Positions 1 to 63,248 of a stretch of DNA of 64,000 bases are shown here, piece after piece. Source of the DNA: Pegea sp. RAD2-039 (Eukaryota > Chordata > Thaliacea > Salpida > Salpidae). A model generated the notes under the pieces. That model searched no databases. It worked only from the letters and a program-made list of their open reading frames with translations, and was not told the DNA's origin. Every line of letters starts with the position of its first letter. Within the stretch, counting starts at the first letter, position 1. Made by a program: the position numbers and the translations under genes. Location: the NCBI GenBank assembly GCA_034620365.1, contig JAQGEQ010000175.1, positions 1-64,000 on the forward strand, given 5' to 3'.

Positions 1-880
1 TCTTCAACAAGTTTAGCTTCAGTTTCAACTTCTTTGATTTCAATTTCTTCAACTTCTTTCAAAGATTCATCTTCTGAAGATGAAGATGAAGATGATGATG
101 ATTTGGTTTCTTCAACAAGTTTAGCTTCAGTTTCAACTTCTTTGATTTCAATTTCTTCAACTTCTTTCAAAGATTCATCTTCTGAAGATGAAGATGAAGA
201 TGATGATGATTTGGTTTCTTCAACAAGTTTAGCTTCAGTTTCAACTTCTTTGATCTCAACTTCTTCAACTTCTTTCAAAGATTCATTTTCTGAAGATGAA
301 GAAGATGAAGAGGATGAAGATGAAGATGATGAAGATGAAGATGATTTGGTTTCTTCAACAAGTTTAGCTTCAGTTTCAACTTCTTTGATCTCAACTTCTT
401 CAACTTCTTTCAAAGATTCATTTTCTGAAGATGAAGAAGATGAAGAGGATGAAGATGAAGATGATGAAGATGAAGATGATTTGGTTTCTTCAACAAGTTT
501 AGCTTCAATTTCAACTTCTTTGATTTCAACTTCTTCAACTTCTTTCAAAGATTCATCTTCTGAAGATGAAGATGATGAAGATGAAGATGATGAAGATGAT
601 GATGATTTAGTTTCTTCAACAAGTTTAGTTTCAATTTCAACTTCTTTGATTTCAACTTCTTCGACTTCTTTCAAAGATTCATCTTCTGAAGATGAAGATG
701 ATGAAGATGAAGATGAAGATAATGAAGATGATGAAGATGATGATGATTTAGTTTCTTCAACAAGTTTAGTTTCAATTTCAACTTCTTTGATTTCAATTTC
801 TTCAACTTCTTTCAAAGATTCATCTTCTGAAGATGATGAAGAAGATAATGAAGATGATTTGGTTTTTTCAACAAGTTTAG
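1..880 (-). repeat. Coding minisatellite, 108-141 bp units
   Basis: Tandem repeat inside the large exon of the left-edge gene. The landmark tcttcaacaag recurs at 1, 109, 217, 352, 487, 613 and 754, with a variant near 865, giving spacings of 108, 108, 135, 135, 126, 141 and about 111 bp. Every spacing is divisible by three. Nearly all length variation lies in the GAT/GAA triplet stretch, which is poly-Ser when read on the minus strand. The last third of each unit is nearly invariant. Confidence 0.9.
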
Positions 881-1283
881 CTTCAGTTTCAGCTTCTTCA
901 ATTTGTTTGAGTGATTCTTTTTCTAATATAAAGAAAAGAAAGAATAAGTCTTGTAAATTTCTATTATTATCACAGCGTAATTCAATTAAGTAATAATTTG
1001 TTTAAAACATTTTTTATTTTTGATGATTATTCTTTATATGTCATCATCTTTATCAATTTTGTATTATCTTATTATTTTCTTAAATTTTATTAATTTCTTT
1101 TACCTTGAATTACATCTGCTGGTCTCAACATGTCTCTTTGTGTCTGTTTCAAATATTTTCTTAATTTTTATTTTTAATAATTAATGTTTTTTCTTACTTT
1201 TTTGCTTATCTTTTGTTTCATATCTTCCTCTCTAACTGACTCTTCATAACTCTGTTTTTCTTCCTCTATCTTTTTGAAAGTCC
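1..1283 (-). CDS. Unidentified Ser/Glu-rich repeat protein (partial)
   Basis: I do not recognise the family. Three exons join in frame on the minus strand: 1198-1283, 1104-1143 and 1-923 (continuing beyond the window). Donors are GTAAGA and GTAAAA; the last acceptor is a polypyrimidine tract ending TTAG. Residues before the repeats are charged and probably helical (for example EEEKQSYEESVREEDMKQK, then RDMLRPADVIQ). The large exon then carries about seven tandem units of 36-47 residues: a run of 8-17 serines, EDESLKEVEE, then alternating acidic/basic residues ending in KLVEETK. All unit lengths are multiples of three. The first exon was not found; it should lie between 1284 and 2642. The style (Ser runs followed by EDE) resembles the Ser-rich exon of the neighbouring plakin-repeat gene, so it may be a relative or partner. 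The SSSEDE pattern would suit acidophilic kinases such as CK2 (inference). Confidence 0.6.
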
Positions 1284-2642: not shown

Positions 2643-5600
2643 TTACTCATCAGATTTTATTGTACCCTCATCAACTGGTCGTTGGTCGTCATGGAACTCT
2701 CCTTCTTGAGATAACAACTCAGCTGCACTTTCCTTAGTGATGATGTCTTGATCTAGAGCTTCTTGGATAGTGAGTTCGTTGCCAGTAATTGGATCAACAA
2801 TGAATATCTTTCGATATGAGATTGATGGAGACATCGGTCTGCTTTCTGAATCCAAAGTTAAACTTGAAAAAGAACTTGATGTAGAAGATTCTGAAATTAA
2901 AAGTGGATTTATTGATTAAAATTTAAAAATAGCTACAAAAAAACTACTAATAAATAGTATTTACTTCTTGTTTCATTGCTTCTCATGTGAGTTGATCTTT
3001 TTGACTTTTTCTTAGCTTTGACCACCTTGAAAAATTATCAGTTTTTTTAGTATTCATTTTTAAACTGATCAACTTTTTACTTGAAGCTGAGCACTTGTTG
3101 TTGTTCGTTTTTCACGAATTCTTCGAGATTCTGGGGAAGGTTCGAAAGGATAAACATTACTTGTCACTGTTTTGCCCTCGACCATCAAAAATAACAGATT
3201 TGTGTCTTTATCAAGTACACATCTGTCACAACAGAAATCTGATATCTTCATCTCAATTCAATTTAACTTTTACCTGCCCATTAGCTCAGAGTAATTGACA
3301 TTCACACCAGTCATCGGGTCGTAATAACTCTTGGTCTGTTTGGCATCCAATCTTTTACCAAGACGTGAATCTATGATTCCTCGTTTAATGGCATTTTGAA
3401 CAGGAATTCGAAGCGGGCTTGAAAATGAAATAATTCCTCCAGTAGCAATTTGAGCTTCTAATAATCTATAAAAAAAGTATATAAGAAACGGAAGTGGCAA
3501 TTCACAAATCAATTCTACCTGATTGCTTGCTTTTGAGTAACTAAATGTCGAGTCAATGCTTGACAGAGAGTAAAGGTTGTTGGGATAAAATGTCCTTGGT
3601 AACCAACTACTGCTTTGTGAGCCTCTTTGACATCAGCTTCAAATTCACTAGGAATGAATGATCTTTTTGGTGAGTATCTTTCTTGTATACTACAGCTACT
3701 TTATCACCTGCTTATAACTCCTGTGCTTAAGGCGGTTTCTATAGAAACAGCTTTACCAGATTGCACATCAATAATTTTACCAGAAGCAGCTTGTGCCTCA
3801 AGTAAATGAAAAGCAGTTTTTTTATGAATTAAACGATTTTTCTCGGCTTCTAAAATACTCATTTTTTCACCTAAGAAACAAAATATTTTCAAAATTGAAT
3901 CCTAAATATTTAAAGATGCTGCCTTAAAAGTAAATTGAATCAAACCTTTTACCTATTGTAAATTTATTATTGATTAAAATATTAAATAACTTCTTATGGA
4001 TTTCAATCATAACTTAATGTTTAAGTATTTTTCGTAATAAACTTTTTAGCAGTAATTCAGAAATATAATAAAATCTCAAGACACAAATCATAAGGACATA
4101 TTTAAGAATGAGTCAAATTCAGAATTATTTTCGTTTAAAATTGATGAATATATTTCTTATATCTTAGCACAATCTGTGTCATATATGAATATCTAAAAAT
4201 TGTGTTTCATAAAAACCTGTAACAGCGTTAATAATTCCAGCAATTGGGAACTTTCCATCTACATAAACTCTCAACTCTGCGACCATTTTAGTCACTTCTT
4301 CTCCACTCATTTTACCTCTACCAAAGTTTTCTGCTGTTTTATAATCTATCAACTCAGCAGCGAGAACGTCATTTAAAAGAACATTTTGTTGGTTTGCAGA
4401 TACAAACATCACCTTAAAGTATAAATATTGAATAATTGTATCAAGAAAAAGAGATTGGTTTACTTTTGAAGTCACTGGATTCTCAACTGTTTTTTGCTTT
4501 TCCTGTTTGTTCAAAAAGGGAAGAAAACGAAGTCCTGATTCTTTATCAACAACGCATCTTGAAAGAGTTTACAAAAAATGAGAATTTGTAATCAAAACTT
4601 TGTCGTGATTACCGTTGCATTAGTTCCAGATAGGTCAGATTTTCTTCAGTGTTAGGATCAAAAAATCCTCTAGTGTCATCAGAAGGATCTTCTAATATAT
4701 CATTCAATTCTTGATCAAATAGATTTCGTTGAAATGCTACTTCCACTGGGAGTCTGTGATTCGCATTTGGATCAATAATTCCTGTAAAAAAAATTCACTT
4801 TTGATAAATAGAAATATTTTAAGACTGATAGAACAATTTTGAATAAAATATTTTAATTAAGAACCTCCAGTAGCAATTTGAGCTTCTAGTAATCTGATCC
4901 CGTGGTTTTCTAACACTAACTTCCTCTTCATCGCTTCGAACAAGGATATTGGTTTCGGTAGAGATCGAACGCTGTATCCGTAAACAGCGTTTTCAGCACT
5001 GAAAGAAAAACAGTTTTCCGGTATAAATTTTTATTTAGAAATAAAAAAAATTATCTTAATTTTCATTTTCTATTTTTTTAATTTTTTTCCCTTTAAATTC
5101 AAAAATAAATTTAAGTTTTTTGTTGATTATAAGCATTCAGAAAATATCTAATCAATCTACAAACCGTTGCAAGGCTCTTTCAAATTGACGATCAATCAAT
5201 TTGCTCTCTGCAGCTTCCTTAACAGACATCTTTTGTCCAGAAACTGGATCAATAATTCGTCCAGTTGCTGCTTGAGCTTCCAGCAAATGAAGAGAAGTCC
5301 CTAGAAATTAAAACTTTTTAAAACTTCTTGTATATAAGTTTTAGCGACAAGATATGAATCATTTTATTAAAATTATTATCAAATATTTGATGAAAAGTTA
5401 CCATGACTTAAGAACCCTCTTTTCCATGCTTGATAAATGGAAAGCTTTTCACCAGTTTCACTCAGCAACAAACCAGCGACTGGTTCTTCTCCAACCAGAT
5501 ACATTTGTACAGATTTCTCGATTTCATCTTTTTTAATATCGCCTGAAAACATATTTTTAAATTAACAAAAGATTATCAACAAAATGAAAAGATTGTTTTG

Positions 5601-8600
5601 AAGTCACTGCTTTGCCAGGAATAGTCTCATTTATCAAATATAAGATGTTGATAAAAGCTCACCTGATTCAAGCTTTTCAATTTGTGATTCTGAAACAATG
5701 CCAGCCTCCAACAAGTTCTGTACGGAAACTTTTCTGTTCCATCCAGAAGTAAAAAATATTTCAGCTCTAGATTTTCTAGATGACAAAAATAAAAGCATAA
5801 AATCAAAACTTTGGCATCTTGGACTGTTTATATTTTTTGTTTAATTTTACCTTTTAAGCGTTTCTGTTTTTTGTGTAACAATTTCTTCTGTTATTGTTGT
5901 TATTGTTGTACTAGATTTTTGTATTTTTGAACGTAGTGGTAGAAGCCGAAAGCCTGTGTTTTCGTCAACTTTACAGCTAAAAACAAATAATTTTTAAATA
6001 TCAGAAATATTTGAGGCAAATTTAGACTAGAAACTAAAAAATTTACAAAAGAGAAAATTATTGAAAAAAACAAGTTTCTTAATAATCACCGCAACATAAG
6101 TTCGAGATAAGTTAGATTCTCTTCAGTGTTTGGATCAATAAATCCTTTAGTATCATCTGAAGGGTCATCTAGTATCTTGTTGAGACGTGCATCAAATAAA
6201 CCTCTTTCGTAAGCAACTTCAACAGGTAATCGATGATTCGCATTTGGATCAATTATACCTGAATCAATTTCAAGTTTATCAAATCTTCAAAAAGATTTCA
6301 GAATCTTACCTCCAGTTGCTATCTGAGCTTCTAGTATTCTTATTCCATTTTGCTCGACTACAATACCCTGGTTCATTGCTTCGAATAATGAGATAGGTTT
6401 TGTATGAATACTTGAACCAAATCCTGTCACTGCCTTTTCAGCTCTTTAAAGGAATTCTTTTTTAGTTTCTTAGATTTTTATAAAACAATTTTTCTACCTT
6501 CTTAATGCAAATTCAAACTGTGGTCCAATTAAGTTCTTGTTTTTAGCTTCATCAACAGACATTTTTACTCCTTGTATAGGATCAATGATTCTTCCAGTAG
6601 CTGCTTGAGCTTCTAGTAAACTTGCAGCTGTACCTGTTTAAGTACAGCTTAAGAAGACTTTTTCATAACTTTTTGATGATTTTTAAACTTTAAATTGTAT
6701 TTTTAACATAAACTATTGGATCTTGCATTAGTTCTGTCAATTTTTCATACTTCTTTTGATTAATCCTTCTTGGTATGCTTTTTGTAATGTCATAATCTTT
6801 CCTGTCTCTTCTACAATAACACCACCAACAGGTTCCTCTCCCAACAAATACAATCTCACAGCTTTTTCAACTTCCATTTCGGTAATTTCACCTGAAATTT
6901 ATTCAATTATCGACAGTCTCTTTTATGTGTCCTAATTCTGACCAATTTCCATTTTCTCAACTGTTTCTTCAGAAACTATTCCTGCCGCAAATAGGTCCTG
7001 GACTGAGACTTTTCGTTCCCAACCAGACTTGAAAAACATCTCTGTACGCGATTTTCTGAACGAAGATAAAAATTTTAATCTTCAGAAGCTTTAGAGATGA
7101 GATTTTGTTGAAGGATTTCTTGATGAATACCTGCGGGTTGGACTTGTTGTTGTTGTCGCATTCAAAGTTTGAGTTCCTTCTTCCTAAAACACAAAACAGT
7201 TTTATAGTTTGTCCAATTCTCAATCCAAATAATCAACATGTCATCAGCTGCTTATTTAGACTTGTCTCAGAACTCTAGATACTTTCTCATTCATCAAGAA
7301 GTTATTTTTAGCTTCATCGTAATATTCTAAAGATAAACTTCATCATTAATATTCTAAAGATAAACTCACATTCAAATGAACTGCACGAATCTCCGCATCT
7401 GAAGGAAGAGGAGATGTGAGACTTGATGGAGGCGAAAGATCTCTTCTAAGATCTCTTCTAAGAGTCGAAGATCGAGACGAAGTTGGCGTGATGACAATGA
7501 AATCTAAGAAGTTGGTTTGAAAGAAGTTTACAAATCAACAATCAACTCACTATCACTAGAATCTTTGTAAACATCTCTCGTGACACGATGTTCAGTAAAT
7601 TCAGACTTCGGCGAACTAGTTCTTGAAATCAGTGCTTTAGTGATTACTCGTTCTTGTGGTCTTGTTTTTACATCATAATAATATTTAGTTGAATACATTG
7701 GAGTCGAAGCAACACTTTTAGAAGATGATTCGCTTGCTACAGAGACTGCTTTCTGTGTAGTCAAACGCTTGACTCTTTTTTTTCTCGGAGTTTTTTCTTG
7801 CTTTTCGATTATCGAATATTCTTCACTTGAAGTCGTGGAGCTTGAATCAGAGGCACTCATCAAGTTAGTCTGCAGTTTTTTATTCTTTCGTTTTATCTTT
7901 CTGCTACGAACAGCTTTAACTGTTGTTGTTGATAATTCAATCATCTTTGGTTTCATTAAATTTTCAGTTTCAGTCATTGTAGAAATCGAAACCGGTTTTG
8001 GAGACTGCTTGGGTTTGTCAAAGTGAATTTTTGTTAGTTTGACTTTACGTATTTTTCTGGTATCTCCATCAGAGCTTGAAAGAGATGAAGATGATGTCGA
8101 AGAACTACTGGATGTGAAACGGATAGTTTGAAGTTTTTTGTTCTTTTTACGTTTTGGTTTTTCAGCTGTCTGAGTTTCAATTGATGCTAAAACTTTGGTT
8201 TCTTTGATTACAGGTTCTATCACCAAAACTTCTTTCTCTTCGTCTGATGATGATGAAGATGAAGATGAGGATGAGGATGAGGAGGGGCCTTCTTTCTGAG
8301 TAACGACTGTCTCAACTTCTTCAGAAGAAGAAGAGGAAGATGATGAGGAAGATGACGAGGAAGATGATTTATACTCCTTAACAACAATCTGAACTTTTTC
8401 CGATTTTTCATCATCAGATGAAGAAGATGAAGATGAAGGCAAGGTCTTTATCTCTTCCTTAACAAGAACAAGTTCCGTCACACCCTCTTCTTCTGAAGAT
8501 GATGATGATGATGAAGACTCATTTTCATCTTCTTTTGATGAACTTGATGAGCTGCTCTTTCCTTTCTCTTCTTTTTCATCTTCTGATGAAGAGCTAGATG

Positions 8601-9972
8601 AATCTTTATCATCTTCCGGTGCTTCTTTTTGTAAAGGTACAACCACAATTTCCGGAACATTATCTTCCTCCTACAGAAGTTGAAAAATAAATAATTAAGT
8701 TTGTTTTGATATAAGCTAAAGATCAATCACAAAATCATTTTTATGATTTGTCACTATAAACATTAGAAGTGGTAAAAACAAAACTTTTTAAAGTTTAACA
8801 GAAATTAGCGTTCCTCATTTTCAAATTTTTTAATATTACATTCAAAAATTCGAAATGTTTTAATGATGTTCTCATTTTCCCTAAGGCATTTGTTGGTGAG
8901 CATTTTTTTAACTGTTGGCTTTTACATCTGATTTTTTGATGAATGAGTTTTCCTTTTTAGTAAATCTATCATAACAATACAATTTTCTTACAAAGTTTGA
9001 GCTTACATTCTAAAATTTAACAAATTTCCTGGTAAGATTTCACTAATATTTTTACTTTTGTTGCTTAAATTGAGTATAAGCTAACAAAAAAAATCTAGCT
9101 TGAGTCTATATATAGCAGATATCTGGTTGTAGCAATATTGTTTATAAACATTCATGTCCAAAACCTTTTCATCTTCAGATGATGATGATGATGAAGATGA
9201 TGATGATGATTCAACTTTTATTATCGTGTCCGGTTTATTTTCAGGCTCTGTGTAAAAATTAAGAAAATGTTATCAAATGTTCCCACACTAAAAATATTTA
9301 AAATTTCTGTAGTTGGTTTTCAGAAGTTGAAAAATTGTATTTAATAACTCAAATCACCTGACTCTGGAGTTTTATTTTCCTCTTCATCAGGTTTCTGTGA
9401 TTAATTTCAATTTGATTATTATGATTCAAGCAATAAAAGTAGTTTTGTCTAACCTCAATATCTATAACTACATCTTTAGGGTCTTGGTTTTCCGGATATT
9501 TGTAATCGGTAGTAACATTCGGTTCTGGTTTCAGACATGAATCTTATCAAATAAATTGAAGTCAAAAAAGATTAAATTTTTCCAAAATATTATAGCAAGA
9601 AAATAGAAATTTGTTAAAAGCAAATTAAGTAGCTTTAATAAAATAAATCATATATTAGTTTAAGTTAAAATTATTCAAAGATCAGATAGTAGTCAGCTTA
9701 AGGTTTTATATTTGTAGAAAATTGTTTATCTTAAAAGTCGAGGGCGTGGTCTTTCTAAGTTTCCATTTCATTGAACTTTTACAAACTTAAAAGTCATGAT
9801 ATCTGTTACAGCTATTTAAAATTAGTAATTTGTAATTAATAAAATAATAATTAACACTTCAGATACCTTTCTTTTTCTTTCTTGGACGTATAAGAAGATA
9901 AGTAACAAGAACTGCAACTAGTAAAAACTCAGCTCCAATAATACCAACAAGAGCTAATTGCCCGGTATCCAT
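2643..9972 (-). CDS. Membrane-anchored protein with three plakin-repeat domains
   Basis: Twenty-six exons join in phase into about 1466 aa. Exons: 9867-9972, 9454-9542, 9358-9394, 9165-9247, 7551-8670, 7370-7503, 7131-7183, 6943-7055, 6751-6891, 6498-6633, 6310-6443, 6090-6258, 5851-5976, 5663-5775, 5402-5542, 5165-5300, 4865-4998, 4613-4781, 4464-4557, 4217-4412, 3708-3870, 3519-3689, 3274-3465, 3081-3222, 2965-3025, 2643-2890. Residues 6-28 form a transmembrane helix followed by RPRKKKK, implying a cytosolic C-terminal part. Residues 90-480 are Ser-rich with runs followed by acidic residues. From about 540 come three modules of some 270 residues with plectin/desmoplakin hallmarks ([45 protein letters not shown]), then a basic linker and a lone repeat ([17 protein letters not shown]). 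Plakin-repeat domains bind intermediate filaments in vertebrate plakins. No plakin, spectrin or coiled-coil rod is visible. Likely role: tethering filaments to a membrane (inference). Confidence 0.88.
4217..7055 (-). repeat. Duplicated exon cassette encoding plakin-repeat modules
   Basis: Modules 1 and 2 are encoded by consecutive exons of identical length and phase: 113, 141, 136, 134 and 169 nt (6943-7055 to 6090-6258), then again 113, 141, 136, 134 and 169 nt (5663-5775 to 4613-4781). Each is followed by a linker exon (126 and 94 nt). Module 3 begins with one 196-nt exon at 4217-4412 that corresponds to a fusion of the first two, and its later exons differ in length. This points to an internal duplication of a whole genomic cassette plus an older, drifted third copy. 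Confidence 0.85.
7321..7369. repeat. 27-bp direct repeat at an intron edge
   Basis: The segment aatattctaaagataaact occurs twice, 27 bp apart, in the intron immediately downstream of the donor of exon 7370-7503 of the plakin-repeat gene. Only the copy at the exon edge continues into the GTGAGT donor. Confidence 0.7.
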
Positions 9973-12900
9973 CGTCTAATATTTACTGAAAAAATATTTT
10001 CTGCTCAAAATATAAGCAACAAAAGTAAAGGAAGCTCTTGCTATAAGTTCAGGAACATACTGACATTTATCAAAAAAAAATTTCAATCGAATTTGAACGG
10101 TAAAAACGCCCACGGGCTAACACATTGGATTGAACAAAACATTTTTTAATTTATGATTGGAATGTTTAGAAATTGTTTTCTAAACATTTAAAGAATTTCT
10201 TAATAAAAACAAGTAAAAACTCGACTAACTAGTAGAAACATTCAATAGTTTTTTGATCATTTTTAAAAATAAAACTAAAATATAAAACTAAAATATTTAA
10301 ATAATCATTTGTTTATCTCACTAATTAGTATTTTTAGAAATTAAATTTAAAATGATTTCTAACAAATAAAAACTAACAAATTAATTAGTAAACAACTTCG
10401 TGCTACGATTTATCAGACAACAATTCGTTTTCTCAAAAACTAAAGTCTAGAAAAGCCTTAGGGTATTTTTAGAAGAAAAAAAAACGAAATTTGACTTCTT
10501 ATAATATTTTAAAACAATTTTGAATTGAAGCAATCTTGTCACTACTCAATCAAACATCTTTTGGTTATCTAAAAAGAAATTATCTATAAATTTGATTAAA
10601 ATTTATTTGTAAATACAAACAGATCTTCAATGTAAATTTGTAATGTTGTAATTAATCTAATCAATTAAATTTTACTTAACCTTTTAATATAAGTAGATTA
10701 TTATTTTATACAGCAGGCAAAATAGATAAACTGTTTTTTAAAAAGAGAAATTAGACCAAAAGCTCTATTTATATATACTCTTAATGAATTAGGAATTTAA
10801 TATCATAATTTCTAATAAAAAATCTTTTTGTGGAGTAATCTCAATAAGTTTTATAAAAAATAATCTTCTTTAAAATAATTACATAAAAGATAGTTAAGAT
10901 TTATAAACTGAAGAAAAATATTTGCGGTAAAGTTATAAATTGATTTGAAAAAAATAATTTAAGTTTCAATGCGTTTTTCTATTTCTTCATTGTAACTGTA
11001 AAGTCAGTAACAAACTATAATAACCTAACAACAACTTAGGAATTGTACAAAATAGTTATTAACTTATTGAAGTTGTTTCATTTTATTCTAGAAGCCAATC
11101 AACTTTGTCTTATACTTTTGACTTATTGCAAAATTTGCTGAAAATACTAAGTTGCTTTTATCTTCTTACGAGGCACAAATTTTAAAAGAAAAAAAATGGT
11201 TTTGTAAACTATATACAAGAATTGTTGACAAATAAAATTAAAGACAGACATGAAAAATAATTATAAACATTGATCAAATGTAACGTTCAGTTTTTAAGTA
11301 AGTTTTTCATCGAAAGTTTGATTAAGGGTGAACATTTCCACAAAAAGTAAATTAAAAAGTTACAATAAAAACTGAATTTTTCTCATTTTGATCAGCAACG
11401 CTTCCAGTGTTTTGGTCAGAAGGGAAATAAAACCTTTCATTTTGCTTTTAAAACTATAAGCTTTAGATATTATTCTTTATGAAGCTGTTAATTAAGAACA
11501 ATTAATCAAACTGATTCTTTGAGTTTCAAGCTTTTTGTGTTTACATATTAAATACAATAAAATATTCAATTTGCTGACAATGCTTTAATTTGAACATGAA
11601 AAACTTTTTTTAGCATTTAGTATTTGATTCTAGAACGATTAGAAGACTTCTAGCGGTATATAAGAAAATGTTGTAGTTGAATTTTGTAGCATAGAGATTT
11701 ATGTTCAATAAAAGATTAATATTCAGTGATCTTCTGATGTTTATGAAGCGTGATTCTAGTAGAAAATATAAAACTTGTTAAATATTTGTAGTGGTTGCTT
11801 CATTTCAGTTTGTTTATCTCGTAAAATTTCGTTTCAGTTAATCAAACTAAACTAACCTATGATTTTAACAAAAGTTTGAAAAGTAATTTATGACGTTAGT
11901 ATACAACTTAAAAATTAAATTCCAAGTTTATAACTTAATTTCTAATTTTGATTTTATTTTAGTGTTTGGTATATAGCACTGTAAATTACTTGTAATGGAT
12001 TTATAAAATATAAACTCAAAATAACTCTATAGATGATTGTTAATTTATTTCAGATTTTGAATATAAAATCGATAACTTAAATACAACTTTAAAAAGATTA
12101 ATATTTATTCAATTATTTTTATACAAGGATTAGTTTTATTTTTATCTTACTACTGTTTTTCCTATTTGTAAGTCTAATAATTTATGTTAGCTTTTCAGCA
12201 TAAGGATTTTTATGATCTTTTTACAAACGAGTCAACATTCAATTATTAACAGAAAGTTTTGTAAACATTGTGAACACTTGTAATATTATGCTTCATTTGG
12301 TAGTTTACAAATATTAAAAATTGTCAAAAAATTCAATTGAAAAAAGATGTTCTTTTAAGATAACTATAAGGCTTTTTTTGTTTAAAATTAGTTTTATTGA
12401 TTATTATAGTTTTAAACTAAATACTTAATTTGAAAATTTACTTTTAGATATCATTTAAGTAAAATAAAAACATTTAGAACAAAATAATTTTATTTGTAGA
12501 TTTTGAAAAATATGTTTTATGCCAGTCGGTTACTTTTATTTAATTAAATTTATAAAATTTATAATTGAAAGCTTTATTGATATTATTAGAGATGAACTTA
12601 TTCTTTAATTGGTTTGATTTTTATTTGAATAAAGTTTTTAATAAAGATAAATCAATTCATTTTCAGAAAGTTTTTTTTTATTATGGATCATTGACTTTCT
12701 GTCTCTAGCAAAAGTTGTTCATTGAAACTTAATAAAATTTGATGTAAACTGAAAATTGTTTAATTCTGATTACTGTAATCTACTATTATTAATCTTATAT
12801 ATCAAATATAATAAAGATAAGTTATAAAGTATATAATTCAATGTTCATAATTCAATTCAATGTTCATTCATTCATTAATTCAAATATAATTCAAACATTA

Positions 12901-12977
12901 AATTAAATCAATGATTGTATTTAGATTTAAATTCATTTTAGAAAACTCTTTTATTTATTTAATTGAAAGATTATGAA
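9973..12977. other. AT-rich intergenic, divergent promoters
   Basis: Lies between the divergently transcribed plakin-repeat gene (-) and the connexin gene (+), so it should contain both promoters. A TTTTTTCAG acceptor-like site at 9986-9987 lies 13 nt before the plakin start, and TCATTTTAG at 12940-12941 lies 36 nt before the connexin start. I see no coding signal, RNA gene or clear promoter motif. Confidence 0.5.
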
Positions 12978-15251
12978 ATGGCTTGGCATATTGTAGAGCG
13001 ATTAATAGATACAGTAGAAACACAATCTACTTTACTTGGTAAGTATTGGACGACGTTTTTCTTCACTCTTCGCTTTCTACTTATCGTTTCAATTGCGTAT
13101 CCTGTGTTTGATTCTGAAAGAGATGAGTTTACATGCAATACACTAACTCCTGGTTGTGAAAATTTGTGTTTCAATGAATTTAACCCGATGTCATTGCTAC
13201 GTTTATGGCAACTGCAGGTAATCAAAGTAAAAATTTAAAAAAGTTTGTTGTTTAATGAGATATATCAATTTTGTTATCAGATAAATAACATGTTTACTAA
13301 AAGGGATGTATTCTTGGTGATAATTTTTATGAGGAATATAAATTTTGTGGTTTTTAAAGGTTTTAAGTGCGGCAACACAAGCTATAATATTTGCTATATA
13401 CCTATCACATAAAAGCAATAAATTAGAAGAATCAAAAGAGAAATATATTAAAGCAAAAAAGCTTAAAAAGATTCAAAAAAATAGAAAGAAATTAGAAGAT
13501 ACTGCGGCTTATAAAATAGATTCTGAGATACATTTAACAACTAGTTACAAGGGTTTGTTACTAAACGACAATTTTGTATTTATTATGAACATTAGAATAA
13601 AGTAATAAGCAGCAAATTTATTAGTAATCGATTAATTTTATTCAGTTATATTTTATAGAAACATTAGAGAATCCTTCTATTGTAACCATATCAGATTCTG
13701 TAAGTTTATTTCTTTTATTTGTTTCAACGTTTTATTTGTAATTAATATTATTAATACAAACTTAATAATCAATAAAAAAAGTCAAATAAAAATATATTAA
13801 TTATAAAAATATATATTCTGAAATATATAGTCAGTAAAAATCTAAACTTAAGTTGTATTTGTAAACTAAAAATGAAAGAGTAATAGATTAAGTTATCAAA
13901 ATATTTAAGTATTTGCTGATCAGAAGTACGCTTTTTGTAAGTTTCAAAAAACCGTTTTGTAATTTTGGTGATTATTTGAAGTGATTTTTGTGTTTTAAAG
14001 GATTCTGAAGAAGACAGTATTGTTAACAAAACATTAGTAGCTTCAAAAATAGATTCATTTGTACCTCCAAAGGTTTTGCTTCTGTATGTAACCCAGGTAG
14101 GTTCACATTCAGATTGTCATAGAAACTAAAACTAAATTTACGATATGATCGAAAATAATTATAAAAACAATCAATAATTTTTGGCTGATTATTATTTGAC
14201 TAAATTATTTTTTAGTCATCTCTAAATTTATTTTATTTGTGAATTTTCTAAATACTTAGCTTAACATATAATTGGTATAAATTAGTTTTATGCTTGTAAA
14301 TATGCTCACTAACTAATGCTTATACTCTTTTTAAAATCGCTGTTTGCTAGAAAATAGTAACTGATTTATTATTTTAAAATGTATAAATAACACCCTATAA
14401 AATGATAATAATATAATAATAAATTGATTTATTAGAAAACTCAATCTGTGAACTGATATAAATTACATTCTATAGTAGTTTGCTGTAAATAATGAACCAA
14501 CATGAGATTTATTTGATTTTTCTAAAACTTAAGACAGATTTTAAAAAGAATATTTTTTTAAAGGCTTAGAGACTTTTAGATATTAGGAGACACAAAAGAG
14601 AATACTTTTAAAGTAACTTTTTGTGATTTTCAGATCGTTTCAAGGTTATCTATTGAAGTTCTCTTCATTTATATACAATGTACTTTATATGTTTACAAGT
14701 TTTGGGTTCCAAAGGTTTATAAGTGTACAGAATACCCATGTAAGGATATAGTGCATTGCTACATCGGCAGGTCTTATGAAAAAACTGCTTTAATATGGAT
14801 TATGTTTTGTAAGTATGATTTGTTGAAACAGTTTAATACAAGTTAATCAGAATTAAAAACTGAAATTAAACGCAGGAAATTTTATTAATAATTTTATAAC
14901 TATTTTTTTTCAATTAACTATTTAGATTATTAAATGAAAAATAATAATTATTAAATAAAAAGTTTTTAAAAATTTTGAAAATATTTATTAGCTTTTAAAC
15001 GATTTTAGTAAATAAAAAAATAATTTTTTATAACTATAATAATAAAATAAACTGATTTTTTTGTAGCTATTACCTTGGTGATGATTATATTTTCACTGAG
15101 TGAATTGATACATATAGGAAAAAAGAATATATTAAAAGCTTGGTCCTTACGTAAGGAAGACTTTGCTAAAACTCAAAAACCCAACTCAGTAAATAAAAAC
15201 AAAAAAGAAGACAAAAAACGCGAGAAATCGTACACAGCTTATTTTGATTAA
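12978..15251 (+). CDS. Connexin (gap junction channel subunit)
   Basis: Six exons, 12978-13217, 13360-13552, 13659-13699, 14001-14096, 14634-14808 and 15067-15251, join in phase into 309 aa. Connexins hexamerise into hemichannels that dock between cells. The N-terminus (MAWHIVERLIDTVETQSTLL) fits the connexin N-terminal helix. TM1 is about 22-42, TM2 74-96, TM3 182-208, TM4 240-262. Extracellular loop 1 has C53-x6-C60-x3-C64 within FTCNTLTPGCENLC; loop 2 has C221-x4-C226-x5-C232 within YKCTEYPCKDIVHC. Both are the invariant connexin patterns and differ from innexins, which have two cysteines per loop. The cytoplasmic loop is lysine-rich; the tail is short (about 45 residues) and basic. Vertebrate connexin coding regions are mostly intronless, so five coding introns are notable. 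The acceptors at 13359 and 14000 are TTTAAAG, weak ones. I cannot assign a vertebrate orthologue. Confidence 0.93.
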
Positions 15252-18298: not shown

Positions 18299-38111
<19,813 letters not shown>

Positions 38112-54355: not shown

Positions 54356-55760
54356 AATAATGATTTAAACAAAGCAAAACTATAGACCTCATGAATATGA
54401 GTTTTTGCACTTAAGTAAATTAAATTGAAATAAAAATGATCAATAACGCACATAAACAAACCAATCTCTTGTTATTGTTTATCATGAGTAATTTAAACAA
54501 CAATTTAACATTGTATAAGTCAATTTCAAGAAGTTTATTATCAAGTTATTACAAAACCAAGGTCCAATTATTCTTGTAGAAAGTAAACTTTATAAATTAA
54601 CAATCGGTTCTTGATGTTGTATTAATTGAAGCAGTTCTATATTGCTAAATGTTCTAATTAACCATATCAACATTATCAGCGGTTCTCTGAAACTATCTAT
54701 CTTACAAAGATTGGAGAAACAAGAAAAATCTTCTTAAGTTGAATTTTAGTTTTTATTTAACCTATTTCTTTGTAAAGAAAAAATATATTGAAAACGTAAT
54801 AGGAATTTTTGTATAAAGGTTTTCGTCCAGTATTTTCAGTTAGAGATCTAAAATAATCTGATCTTTGAAACTTATAAAGATTTAAGAATAAAACCTATTT
54901 TTTAGCTGTTTTAGATTGTATGTCCCAAAAAATATAGTAATTTTCATTCTTTTTTGACAAATACATTGGAATAAAAATAAATTTTAATAGAAATTGGATA
55001 TTTGGATAGTTTAGTCAAAGGCAAGCTTCTAGTTCTTAAACTTATCGAGCCAGCTTATCTAGTTAAAGATTTTGTTGAAATTAGTTTATTAATCTTTGTA
55101 GTTTATTAAACACGTAAATGCTTTTGAAAATATCATAATTTCTAAATACCAATAGATTTGCTTTACTAGTTAAAAATATAAAAGTAGTATTTAAAGTAGT
55201 TTAATAGTTATTGAAAACTTGCATAAGATTTTTGATTGTTTTAATTGTGATTACAATCGGTGAAAATATTTCTTACAAAATTGCTTTATTTAAATTCCAT
55301 AAGGGACTTTCCCAAAATATTTTAAAGTAATGGCTTTTCTCAACTTGCTGCTTTTACTTTGAATCATCTTCCTTATTAATCTATTTTATTCAAAAAGTAT
55401 TTATTCAATTTAAAACTTTTTAGAGTTTTATAGAAATAGACTTTTCGTAAATATTTTTTCTACCGTATTTAGTGGCATTTTACTAAAATATTTTTTTGTT
55501 TTTTAAGTTTTCATAAAGAACACTTTTCAAAGTTTTTTTTATAGAAAAACAGATAATTTTCATCTAACTTATATATATTTCCGTTTTTTTCATATTAAAT
55601 TGAAAAAATTAATTATAAAATTTACAAAATCTGTTTTGACATTATTCTGACAAAATTATATTTTTACTTTTATTTTGGTATTTGTATATTTTAGTTAATA
55701 AAAACTTACTAACGTTTTATAAATCCTTTAAATACTTCTCTAATCTTTGTAAATTTTTAG

Positions 55761-55769
55761 ATGGAGTGA
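55761..55769 (+). promoter_or_regulatory. Two-codon upstream ORF
   Basis: ATG GAG TGA begins immediately after a TTTTTAG acceptor-like site (55754-55760) and ends 13 nt before the receptor kinase start. If the mRNA 5' region is formed by splicing at that acceptor, this minimal upstream ORF would be in the leader and could dampen translation (inference). Confidence 0.4.
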
Positions 55770-55782
55770 TTATTTTGGAATC

Positions 55783-58298
55783 ATGAAAGTTTTTATCTTT
55801 TTTTTCCTGTTAAATTGTAGTTTATTAGTTCAGTTACACTTGTGTGAGGCAATAAGATTACTTAAAGAACCAAATAATCAAGTGTGGTTGATAGGTAAGA
55901 AAAATAATTTAAAATGCCTGTCAAATTTGGAATCTAATCAAACATGCTCATGGTACAAAAACGGAAATTTTATTGGCTCTTCATCATTTTATAATAGAGA
56001 ATGCAATTATGACAAACTCACTTCACACATTAGTAATACAGGAAATTATACTTGTAAAATTGCCAGCAATTTTAGCAATACTGTTCCTGTTTTAAGTTGT
56101 AATTTTTTTGATAAACCAAATTTTACAATAGATATTTTGGAGGGAAAAATTTGTGCAAAAGTTCTGGATGACATTTTTCTAAAGTTTTCTAATAAGTGTT
56201 TGTATTCTTATCTAAAAGGATTAGATAATGAAATACTTGAAAAAAGTAAAGGGTTTTTTGTAGCTTGAAAAAAGTAAAGGGTTTAGCATTTTAGCATTCA
56301 ACAGATAGAACAGACTTTATTGTTGAGTTTAAGTTTTGTGACTGTAATGTTGAATTTAATAAATCATCTATATCTAAAAAAATAAGTGTTCTAGAATCTA
56401 TACCAATTACTGCCACTTGTCAACTAGATTTAGATGTACTAGTAACAATAAAAGATATCAGTAAACTCAATGAAACAGATCAAGATTTTAAATTCTTAAT
56501 TTTCCTTAATGGAGAGAAATATATTAAAAAATTTTCTGAATCGAACAAGATATGGATTCTGCAATCTGAACTTATGAATAAGCTACAAAGTTTTCACTCA
56601 TATAACTTAACATTTTCATATCAGTATTTCAATGAAACAACCAATAGAACCATAGGATCAGGATTATCATTTGCTCAATTTTTATGTGAAGTTAATTATC
56701 TTAAAGACATTCCAAGCTTATTAATTGATTCTGTTGGAAGTTCAAATGTTTCTTTTTGTCTTCAAAATTCAGATGGACAACTATTTAGAGATTTAACTCT
56801 ACTGGTAGAAGTTTGTTTATCTTCACAATCAGATATAGTTTATTGTGATATAAGAGTTGCAAATAATTTGACTTTTACCAATTTAAAAGAAAATACTTCT
56901 TATAAATTTACATCAGCATTTTGTAAAGAAAAACAATATAATAACACTTGTTATTCAAAAAGTGAAATAAAAAAGTTTAAGACAAAGATGATTGCAAAGA
57001 AAAATCCAGAAGAGAAATCTGGCTCAATCCCAATCTACATCATCATATCTTCAGGTATAATCCTCTTCTTTCTAATCATTCTGATGCCTTTAGTATATCA
57101 TCTTAAGAGAAGTGTAAGAACAAGATTAGATTTTGAGAATGTTGATAATTTAGGAATAGACACATTAAGATCACAACCGAATTGTTATTATACGCCAATG
57201 TCACCTCATTCTCCAACTAAGCAGAGTCTGATGGAAGACATCAAAGACCGTTTTAGTGATAAAATTATTAATAAATCTGATATTAAAGTTTTAGCTGAAA
57301 TAGGACAAGGCCAGTTTGGTTTTGTTCATGAAGGAATTTTGTCAATTCGAGATAAAGGCAAAATAGTAAAAGAACAGAAAGTAGCTGTTAAATTCACTTT
57401 GCTAAATGATTTTACTTTAAGAGAAAAGATGGAAATATTAAAAGAAGCTCATCGAATGAAAGATCTTGATCATCCAAATGTGATGAGATTAACTGGGATC
57501 TATATTCCAAAGTTTGAAACAGTTGCCTCATTTAATCCAAGCGTTGTACTACCTTACATTGAAAACGGAGATCTTAAAACTTATTTAATGCAGAAACGTT
57601 TAGCTTTTGAAACAGCTGATTTAACTTTGAATTCTTTGTTCAACTTTTGTGTTGATATTGCAAATGGTATGGATTATCTTGCTCAACATCAAATCGTGCA
57701 TAGAGATTTAGCAGCAAGAAACTGTATGTTAGATAATAATTTAAATGTAATTATCAGTGATTTTGGTTTGTCAAGACCTCTATATTCAAGTGAGTATTAT
57801 CGTCAACAAAAAGTTAGTAAACTTCCTATAAAATGGATGGCACTTGAAAGTTTAGTTGATAATATTTTCACTTTTAAAACCGATGTATGGGGCTTTGGTG
57901 TTACAGCTTGGGAAATATTTACATTTGGTCAACAACCATATCCAGGAATTTCTAATAGTGAATTAAAAGGGTTTCTGAGTAGAGGTATGAGACTAGCAAG
58001 GCCTGAAAATTGTCCAAACCAGCTTTGGTCAAGTGTGGTTTATCCTTGTTGGCAACAACAAGCTGATGATAGAAGTAATTTTTCTGAAATTATAAAAGAT
58101 CTTCAAAATATAAAGAGTCTTCTTGGTGAAGAAGTTTTAGAAGAAGCGGTAAAACTAGTTCATCTACATTCATTTGCTTCTATTGATGATAATTATTTAG
58201 GTGACGGTTATAGTTCTGTAAATCAATATATAACACCTGATACATTTATTGAACAATCATTAGATTTTGATTACAAAGAAGACATAATTGAGTTATGA
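55783..58298 (+). CDS. TAM-like receptor tyrosine kinase
   Basis: Two exons, 55783-56245 and 56305-58298, give 818 aa. Layout: signal peptide (1-23), a Cys-containing Ig-like region and further divergent ectodomain with many N-x-S/T sites, transmembrane helix about 396-420, cytoplasmic kinase about 482-760, tail. Kinase motifs are complete: GQGQFG loop, VAVKF lysine near 517, HRDLAARN near 620, DFGLS near 640, an activation loop with EYYRQ. Similarity to Axl/Mer/Tyro3 is in LDHPNVMRLTGIYI, the YYRQ...LPIKWMALESL activation segment and the PYPGISNSELKGFL region. The TAM signature KWIAIES reads KWMALES, so a TAM-like assignment is safer than orthology. Tail tyrosines (NYLGDGYSSVNQY) could be docking sites. 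The ectodomain is too divergent to count Ig and FN3 domains by eye. One intron in 2.5 kb is unusual for this family. Confidence 0.9.
56236..56284 (+). repeat. Tandem duplication across a splice donor
   Basis: The sequence cttgaaaaaagtaaagggtt occurs at 56236 and again at 56264 (28-bp offset). The first copy holds the exon end and the donor GTAAAG used at 56246; the second copy, with the same donor sequence, lies inside the 59-nt intron (56246-56304). Using the second donor would include an in-frame TAG. Confidence 0.8.
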
Positions 58299-60653: not shown

Positions 60654-63248
60654 ATGAGACTTAATAGGTCATATTTTGTTGTTTTTTCTGTTGTTTTAAT
60701 TCCTTTTTATATACATTCAAAATGGAATCAACCAAAAGTTTGTATAAATGAGAATAAAGAGTTAAGACAAATTAAAGATGTAGATGAAACTGCTGATAAT
60801 AAGATCTTTTTAAACATAAAAAATGATATAAATATTTTATTTGGACTTGAAAATGATTCTGACACTGTACAGGTGAGACATTTTCTAAGTTATCCTAATG
60901 TTTAGGTTATTATGATTATTATTATTTTATTATTCTATTAAAGAAAACTTTTTTGTTGCATATTACTATGTTTTGTTTTTAATAACATCAGTCATAGCAT
61001 ATCCAGCATGGTGTTTTATAATAACTTCTTTTGTTTATTAAAAATACTTCATTATAGTAAATCAGTTTAATGAATAAATTTGAGTTATTTTAAAAGTTTT
61101 ACTTTTCATTTAACAACTAATACTATATTAGATCATCTGTATTTATTTGTTAGAACTGAGAGTTTATTTTATTATGGATGCTTATATATTTTTAAGATAT
61201 AAATTTGGATAAAAATATAATTATACAAATATTTTTTGTCTGAATGTTTATTATATTGGTTGTTTTTACATTTTTGCTTGTAATTCTTGTACCTATAACT
61301 GATAAAATATTGAAGATTCATTTTTATATTAGTATATATATGAGTAATCTTTCAAGATGCAAAGGTCAGTAGAAGTATTTGTGTTTTTTAAAAGATATAT
61401 TTTCTTCTATTAAAGTTATAAATTTAACTTTGAGTTTTCTGAACAAAATAAACCAGCTAAAAGTTTTAAAAGCTTTTTTTATGAATTATATTTTGTAATA
61501 AAGTCATTTTTAGTATTTTCATAGCAAGAAAGTTTATGGCCTCACTGGATTATGCTTCATGTAACTTATTATCTAATAATTCAATAAGATAACTACTTCT
61601 AAAGATAAAGTCAAATGTAAAAACTAAAATAAAAACTTTAAATTGAAGAAAGCAGTATACTATGTATATATGTGGAGGTACTATAAATTTATTTATTTCA
61701 ATAAATGCGAAGAAGGGTGCCTGAAAAGAGCACCTCTCTCTAATAAACATTCCCACAAATAATATAAATACTATAATAATTATTTGTTTTATAATTATTT
61801 TATTCTTAATTCACAATATGACAAGCAAAAATATTAATTATTTATTTTGTTGTGCTCAATAAGTACTAACTATAGTGGTAATATTATTTGAAAAATTATA
61901 CAAATTATTTGACCTTATAAATTGCTTTCAACTTGACGTGTTTCAGTTTTTAACTCTTAATAATCTTTAGGATAAGAATTTATAGATTATTTTTTAGAAG
62001 ATATAACAAAATATAATCTTTCAATTTTAGGTCACAGCTGATGAAAGAATGGAAACTCTTAATGATATTTGTCAATATTCATTACCTCTTCCTTTAAAAT
62101 TTGAACAACTTTCTAAAAAAGAAAGAGATATTTTCACAAAACATGTGATTGTCAATGATGAATATAAATTCTTATATTGTTATACACCTAAAGTAAAGTT
62201 TTTACAACTTTTTATGATTAGTTTTTTCAAACAGTAAAAATTATTTTCTGAATTTTGTTTAAAACCAGCTTATATAAACATGAGATGCTTATAATTTGTT
62301 TAGTAATTTGTAAAATATATTTTAAGAATGTTGATTAATCAAAAAATGTGTGATATCAATTTAGTTAAAAAGCACAAAAATGTTTTCTTATAAAATTCTA
62401 GAAGACATAATTGTTGGTTTTTGAATTAGGTAGCTTGTTCTAATTGGAAAAAAGTTATCAAATATCTATATGGTCAAATTGATAATATTGATAAAATTTA
62501 TAAAATGGACCACAAAGCTGGTTTCAAGAAGCTTTCTGATTACAACATCGACGAGATTAACTTTCGAATCAGCAACTATTACAAGTTTATGTTTGTTCGA
62601 AACCCAACACGGCGTATTATATCAGCTTATCGAAATAAATTTAATGAAATCGAATCTTTTTATAAAACATATGGAAAAAAAATCAACGAAATCTTTCATC
62701 CTAAAAGACTTCATCAAAACGTAAGATACTTTTACATGTGATGCTGAAATTAATTCCTTTTTTTGGTTAGTATGAAGGCAAGGTTGTTGGAGATGACATC
62801 GCATTTCTTGATTTCATCAAATATTTGAATGAAGGAATTGAATTAATAGATATGAATGAACATTGGATGCCTATGTCTCTTTTATGTCAACCATGTGTCA
62901 TGGGATATGATTTTATTGGATCTACTGAAAATATTGATAAAGACTCTGAAGTAATTTGTGATTAGATTGTTAATGAGATACTTTTTATAATCTATAAAGT
63001 AGTTGAAAGATGTAACAATCTGTCTTTTTTTACAGACTGTTCTGCGTTCCATACAAGCACCTCCTGATGTACATTTCCCAAAAAGACAATCTTATTATAA
63101 ACCTACTAGCAAAAGCTTAGAAAACTTTTATCTTTCTCTTTTACCTCCGAAAATTTTAGATGAATTTGTTCAACGTTACAGTATCGACTATAACATGTTT
63201 TCTTATCAGAAACCTTATTTCGTTCATGAGAATGTCATCGTTCCTTAA
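60654..63248 (+). CDS. Golgi carbohydrate sulfotransferase (CHST8-14 type)
   Basis: Five exons, 60654-60872, 62031-62192, 62430-62720, 62771-62950 and 63036-63248, all separated by phase-0 introns, give 354 aa. The family transfers sulfate from PAPS to GalNAc, GlcA or similar sugars on chondroitin/dermatan chains or HNK-1 glycans in the Golgi lumen. Residues 7-24 form a type II signal anchor (YFVVFSVVLIPFYI). The 5'-phosphosulfate-binding motif is PKVACSNWKKV (about 126-136, split by an intron), and the 3'-phosphate-binding motif is FVRNPTRRIISAYRNKF (about 182-198). The family block HWMPMSLLCQPCVMGYDFIG follows near 250. Length is typical. The acceptor sugar cannot be predicted by eye. In the 3'-phosphate motif the usual RDP/REP is RNP. 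SMG5 begins 327 nt downstream on the same strand. Confidence 0.92.
60873..62030. other. Intron 1 of the sulfotransferase gene
   Basis: 1158-nt intron from GTGAGA to TTCAATTTTAG. It holds no frame or element that I can recognise; a 68-codon minus-strand frame at 61550-61756 has no supporting features. Confidence 0.6.

Follow-up and report, generated by a model that had tools for sequence, protein, structure and literature searches.

In vertebrates, a cadherin or integrin, adaptors and a rod plakin together connect an intermediate filament to the membrane. The locus described here raises the question of whether a single molecule could stand in for this chain. A tunicate gene, called gene A below, is predicted to encode a protein that begins with a membrane helix and continues into plakin repeats. 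The 64-kb window in which we studied it opens contig C258 of a 105.7-Mb assembly, and it is known here as a gene model, from genomic sequence alone. A search of this genome for GH6, a tunicate marker, gave one marginal match (27.5 bits, cut-off 27), and a search for COX1 gave no match. Cellulose synthesis is reported to be unique to tunicates among animals, and Ciona is reported to carry a transferred GH6 gene (PMC10334666).

Exon-by-exon reconstruction gave a minus-strand gene of 26 exons (9972-2643) with one frame of 1457 residues closed by a terminal stop, in agreement with the coordinates and exon count proposed in an earlier note on this DNA. All 25 introns are GT-AG (45 to 494 bases) and all phases close. 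Exon 1 (9867-9972) carries the start codon, the membrane helix and an RPRKKKK patch and is followed by a phase-1 intron. Exons 2-4 (9542-9454, 9394-9358 and 9247-9165; GT-AG, phases 1 to 0, 0 to 1 and 1 to 0) encode the acidic start of a linker and the first poly-Ser tract, exon 5 (7551-8670, 1120 nt) encodes Ser/acidic tracts and then basic clusters, and the linker ends in exons 6-7 (7131-7503). Three plakin-repeat (PRD) modules follow in exons 8-13 (5851-7055), exons 14-19 (4464-5775) and exons 20-24 (3081-4412), the third being more divergent and succeeded by a basic tail. The exons of module 1 measure 113, 141, 136, 134, 169 and 126 nt and those of module 2 measure 113, 141, 136, 134, 169 and 94 nt, so that the first five lengths are identical and the sixth differs. 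Together with the closing phases, these matching lengths make it unlikely that the gene A model arose by chance. Exons 25-26 (2643-3025) encode a basic stretch, a Ser-rich stretch and the stop codon; the terminal repeat that had been claimed there is visible by eye as one repeat-like segment in exon 26 but is absent from the PF00681 matches in the genome.

An in-frame TAG lies 6 bases upstream of the gene A ATG; it may sit in a splice acceptor and is therefore weak evidence for the true start. The start codons of a paralogue on contig C177 (C177:85386) and of gene A (9972) both stand closely after AG(G)ACG (ttctaggacgATG and attagacgATG, respectively), and this motif may be an acceptor for a spliced leader or for the 5' UTR. 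The 64-kb window was also scanned for Rfam families and tRNAs, with no match. By eye, the window also holds zinc-finger protein ORFs with C2H2 motifs, Sall-like, on the minus strand (22075-24651), two long ORFs resembling a TAM-like receptor tyrosine kinase on the plus strand (55753-58295; extracellular part, helix and kinase with IKWMALESL), and a sulfotransferase-like ORF on the plus strand (62430-62738; FVRNPTRRIISAYRNKF).

The hydropathy profile of gene A contains a single hydrophobic segment, at residues 3-30, and the RPRKKKK patch comes next. One helix and a net positive cytosolic flank are thus present, topology being read here from hydropathy and the charge rule rather than from a dedicated predictor. 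The proposed N-terminal transmembrane helix is borne out by this profile, and the proposed cytoplasmic body is supported by the charge rule and by a signal-peptide-like segment in the C177 paralogue (see below). The protein has almost no ectodomain, and any adhesion would therefore have to come from partner proteins. A Ser/acidic region of nearly 400 residues had also been described, which holds in part: the Ser exon encodes 373 residues, within a linker of 505 (residues 36-540) whose acidic character is confined to the first part. This linker contains 120 Ser, 86 acidic and 79 basic residues, and its net charge is -32 over residues 36-235 and +22 over 236-435. It has eight runs of at least five Ser, seven of which lead straight into an acidic or K-E-D stretch, and basic clusters that begin at residues 275-280, 309-311, 360-366 and 398-403. 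Enrichment of CK2-type sites was considered and rejected, as the 30 [ST]xx[DE] sites do not exceed the number in shuffles (mean 28.2).

Pfam assigned Plectin repeats to gene A over the curated cut-off (E 1.2e-111, nine stretches), and the three modules align with the solved desmoplakin structures 5dzz and 1lm7 over 233 to 235 columns, both of which confirm the three plakin-repeat modules claimed earlier. The best solved-structure match was 5dzz (E 6.1e-115). Identity to desmoplakin PRD-C is 48.9% over 235 columns for module 1, 51.5% over 235 for module 2 and 35.6% over 233 for module 3. The only other Pfam entry for gene A, PF04029, fell below its cut-off and was set aside.

The same protein scans covered three paralogues, on contigs C25, C21 and C177, with gene B (see below) standing outside this set. 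Only Plectin repeats rose above the cut-off in the three, and five sub-cut-off entries each in C177 and C25 were set aside. In these four proteins Pfam found no plakin domain (SH3 in spectrin repeats) and no spectrin or rod family, as the earlier note had held for gene A; of the two features by which the plakin family is recognised, a plakin domain and a spectrin or coiled-coil rod, Pfam detected neither in gene A. For the genome as a whole, a single match to PF17902, on C66, was rejected as a plakin domain since by eye it is an SH3 beside an SH2, and searches with PF18373 and PF21019 gave no match. Such an exon-wise search is insensitive to domains this divergent, and genome-wide absence of the plakin domain is not established by it. 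GAS2 matches on C262 and C194 make it probable that the genome has spectraplakin or GAS2-like genes on contigs other than those that carry PRDs.

Plakin repeats occur at few places in this genome. PF00681 matched five contigs, C258, C85, C177, C25 and C21 (19 matches, 30 of 30 candidates scored), and a protein search of the genome reached the same five with at least 36 matches (32 of 45 candidates scored). Models free of internal stops were obtained on C25 (770 residues, seven exons), C21 (538 residues, four exons) and C177 (at least 451 residues, nine exons; the 3' end was not found in the model). Each has an N-terminal helix, basic residues, a phase-1 intron right after them, a charged linker and then the repeats. 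The basic patch of C21 is weak, with three basic residues. In C177 a hydrophobic, signal-peptide-like segment lies ahead of the helix, which would place the repeats in the cytosol; apart from this segment, each of the three proteins has one hydrophobic region. A GC donor occurs in one intron of C25 and in one of C177; the C25 intron concerned is the one after the helix exon, but the C25 frame runs open from the ATG through the helix to the acidic stretch even when unspliced. Beyond the helix exon, the introns of C25 and C177 follow one phase pattern and those of gene A and C21 a different one, the agreement of the latter pair being partly by construction because exon 2 of C21 was selected by requiring phases 1 to 0 (one candidate). 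A single ORF, helix, charge topology and PRD modules were thus reconstructed as gene models, and the same order recurs in the three paralogues. Judged from these models, the predicted family of membrane-anchored plakin-repeat proteins has at least four members.

A further member of the locus, gene B, appears to be split by the assembly. Its 5' part lies on the minus strand at 1-1283 of the window, with candidate exons at 1283-1241 and 1159-1104 and a further one that starts at 922 and runs into a Ser/acidic tandem repeat cut by the contig end. Exon 2 of gene B is a candidate reading, in frame with one of two donors considered. This repeat, with units of about 108 to 141 bases, occupies window positions 1-904 (minus strand) and C85:2-1837, and the assembly breaks inside it. 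Contig C85 begins within the same repeat that ends C258 and carries the gene B plakin repeats, from which we infer a tandem gene B and a C258-C85 join across the Ser repeat. Four blocks within 4609-6641 match C85 at 92 to 97%, some introns included; the Ser repeats match too, and 8007-8146, in exon 5, has 79% DNA identity to gene B on C85. Beyond these regions, gene A and C85 share no match longer than 60 bases at E 1e-5. The possibility that C85 is an allele of gene A was rejected as the similarity is confined to blocks, and it was taken for a tandem paralogue.

We consider it probable that the family consists of single-pass membrane-to-intermediate-filament tethers whose N-terminus faces outwards and whose C-terminus lies in the cytosol. 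Anchorage in a membrane, most likely that of the cell surface (the plasma membrane), would come from the helix and basic patch. The linker, with its length, charge and poly-Ser tracts, would act as a flexible spacer and may be phosphorylated, and the desmoplakin PRD-C-like modules at the far end would grip intermediate filaments, as their likeness to solved PRDs suggests. One molecule would then replace the chain of cadherin or integrin, adaptor, rod plakin and filament. Expression, location, phosphorylation, filament binding and load bearing all belong to the proposed part of this reading.

Another possibility is that the proteins sit in the nuclear envelope or ER, where NLS-like clusters in the linker would direct them to the inner nuclear membrane and the repeats would hold the lamina rather than cytoplasmic filaments. 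An NLS combined with a long linker is the layout that sorts yeast membrane proteins, and the gene A linker, which looks disordered, has basic clusters from 275-280 to 398-403. The paralogues speak against this, however: basic clusters occur only at the membrane in C25 and C177, and those of C21 are confined to 409 and 503-504, within its PRD or beyond it. Vertebrate plakin repeats, moreover, serve cytoplasmic filaments. We therefore regard a nuclear tether as unlikely and attachment to cytoplasmic filaments as the better reading.

How well the modules might hold a filament was approached through the basic groove by which envoplakin binds vimentin. In envoplakin, R1895, K1901, R1914, R1952 and K1994 are critical for this binding and R1876 also sits in the groove (PMC4782060). 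We aligned seven modules from gene A, C25, C21 and C177 (those of gene B were left out, and the C177 module was one residue shorter than in the later model) and counted the basic residues kept at these six positions. Modules 1 to 3 of gene A keep three, two and two, the two C25 modules two each, and the C21 and C177 modules three each, as compared with four in desmoplakin PRD-C and six in both desmoplakin PRD-B and plectin. The equivalent of R1952 is the only groove position common to all seven modules, and the core repeat is kept in all of them. A net negative charge is seen in five of the seven (PRD1 and PRD2 of gene A, each at -5, C25 module 1, C21 and C177). These counts argue against binding of envoplakin-like strength, without settling whether filaments are bound.

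The same data could be read to mean that the family forms membrane scaffolds that do not bind filaments, with PRD folds retained as protein-docking modules and the groove decayed; every module compared has lost part of the basic groove and most of them are net negative, both of which are consistent with this. On the other hand, desmoplakin PRD-C, the closest solved relative, has a net charge of -10 and is itself without two of the six groove residues, and the core repeat and R1952 equivalent persist throughout the set. A scaffold of this kind seems improbable to us, and we retain the filament tether as the preferred reading.

To what extent helix exons of this type occur elsewhere was assessed with a scan that required an ATG, a 19-residue window of mean hydropathy of at least 2, at least three net basic residues thereafter, and a donor. 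It covered 556,534 strand-bases, made up of the window and 33 loci, some overlapping, of which eight were 10-kb stretches picked irrespective of content. Five distinct helix exons were found. Four lie at PRD loci, upstream of the repeats and on their strand, and the fifth, on C1, resembles by eye a cytochrome P450 anchor. Within the window, exon 1 of gene A is the sole helix exon on either strand under this rule. Since this rule had been derived from exons first recognised by eye, the weight of the result rests on the scarcity of other matches. Upstream of gene B no helix exon was found, looser rules included, the hydrophobic stretches there being without a matching start and donor. An error in the model, with the helix exon being part of a different gene and the plakin-repeat protein cytosolic and epiplakin-like, is highly improbable: the exon 1 donor is weak (GTATCT, 4/6), a splice acceptor may lie just before the ATG, the model comes from genomic sequence and gene B has no detected helix exon, but a helix exon with identical phase and correct strand is present at four of the five loci, whereas the remainder of the 557 kb of strand-bases yielded one unrelated exon, and the minus strand from 8670 to 13772 has no other stop-to-stop ORF of at least 100 codons.

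A membrane-to-filament tether would need filaments to hold. The intermediate-filament rod, PF00038, gave 19 matches at six places (35 of 35 candidates scored). Alone or with their neighbors, matches exceeded the cut-off at five loci (C21, C44, C8, C29 and C1 near 3.475 Mb), and the sixth place (C1 near 3.454 Mb) fell below it. Weak sub-cut-off matches were also obtained in five of 14 control genomes, as expected of coiled coils. The PF00038 loci indicate that filament partners very probably exist in this genome. The membrane-plakin gene on C21 (C21:244565-248009) lies about 55 kb from an intermediate-filament gene (C21:302999-304766).

Among known plakins, gene A is closest in its repeats to desmoplakin (PDB 5dzz, 1lm7 and 1lm5): modules 1 and 2 are about 50% identical to PRD-C and the module ending is common to both. 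The desmoplakin N-terminus binds armadillo adaptors. Gene A, in contrast, has no detected plakin domain or rod family and carries an N-terminal membrane helix instead. Epiplakin likewise has plakin repeats without a plakin or rod domain, and it is described as consisting of PRDs only, encoded by a single coding exon, present in jawed vertebrates and not found in Ciona (PMC8782857). Gene A differs from it in its membrane helix, linker and 26 exons and is not an epiplakin by these features. It resembles the envoplakin PRD (PDB 4qmd) by sequence and in the R1952-type groove arginine, whereas three of the six groove positions in module 1 and four of six in modules 2 and 3 are not basic. A possible orthologue in another tunicate is the Ciona papilla gene Cirobu.g00006733, which is described as a plectin/desmoplakin/epiplakin orthologue, the accessible part of that description mentioning no helix (PMC7397655). 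Plectin repeats are reported from deuterostome spectraplakins and plakins and from protostome spectraplakin homologues (PMC9145010). In the open-access literature searched, as far as its text was available and with subscription journals outside that scope, we met no membrane-anchored plakin-repeat protein, no paper joining plakin repeat, transmembrane and tunicate, and none on plakin, amphioxus and intermediate filament.

More tentatively, plakin repeats may have left the plakin-domain cytolinkers in this lineage and given rise to a second, adaptor-free anchoring system that replaces desmoplakin or plectin junctions; we put this forward as a possibility that is rather less likely than the tether itself. 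Were one molecule to act as the tether, this would demonstrate that direct fusion of the gripping module to a membrane helix is feasible. Tunicates are the sister group of vertebrates, and the presence of the family in one of them therefore bears on the origin of desmosome-type anchoring. Some animals, to our knowledge, have no desmosomal cadherins, and the family bears as well on how filaments are anchored to membranes in such animals. It also offers a natural minimal construct for studies of membrane-filament coupling.
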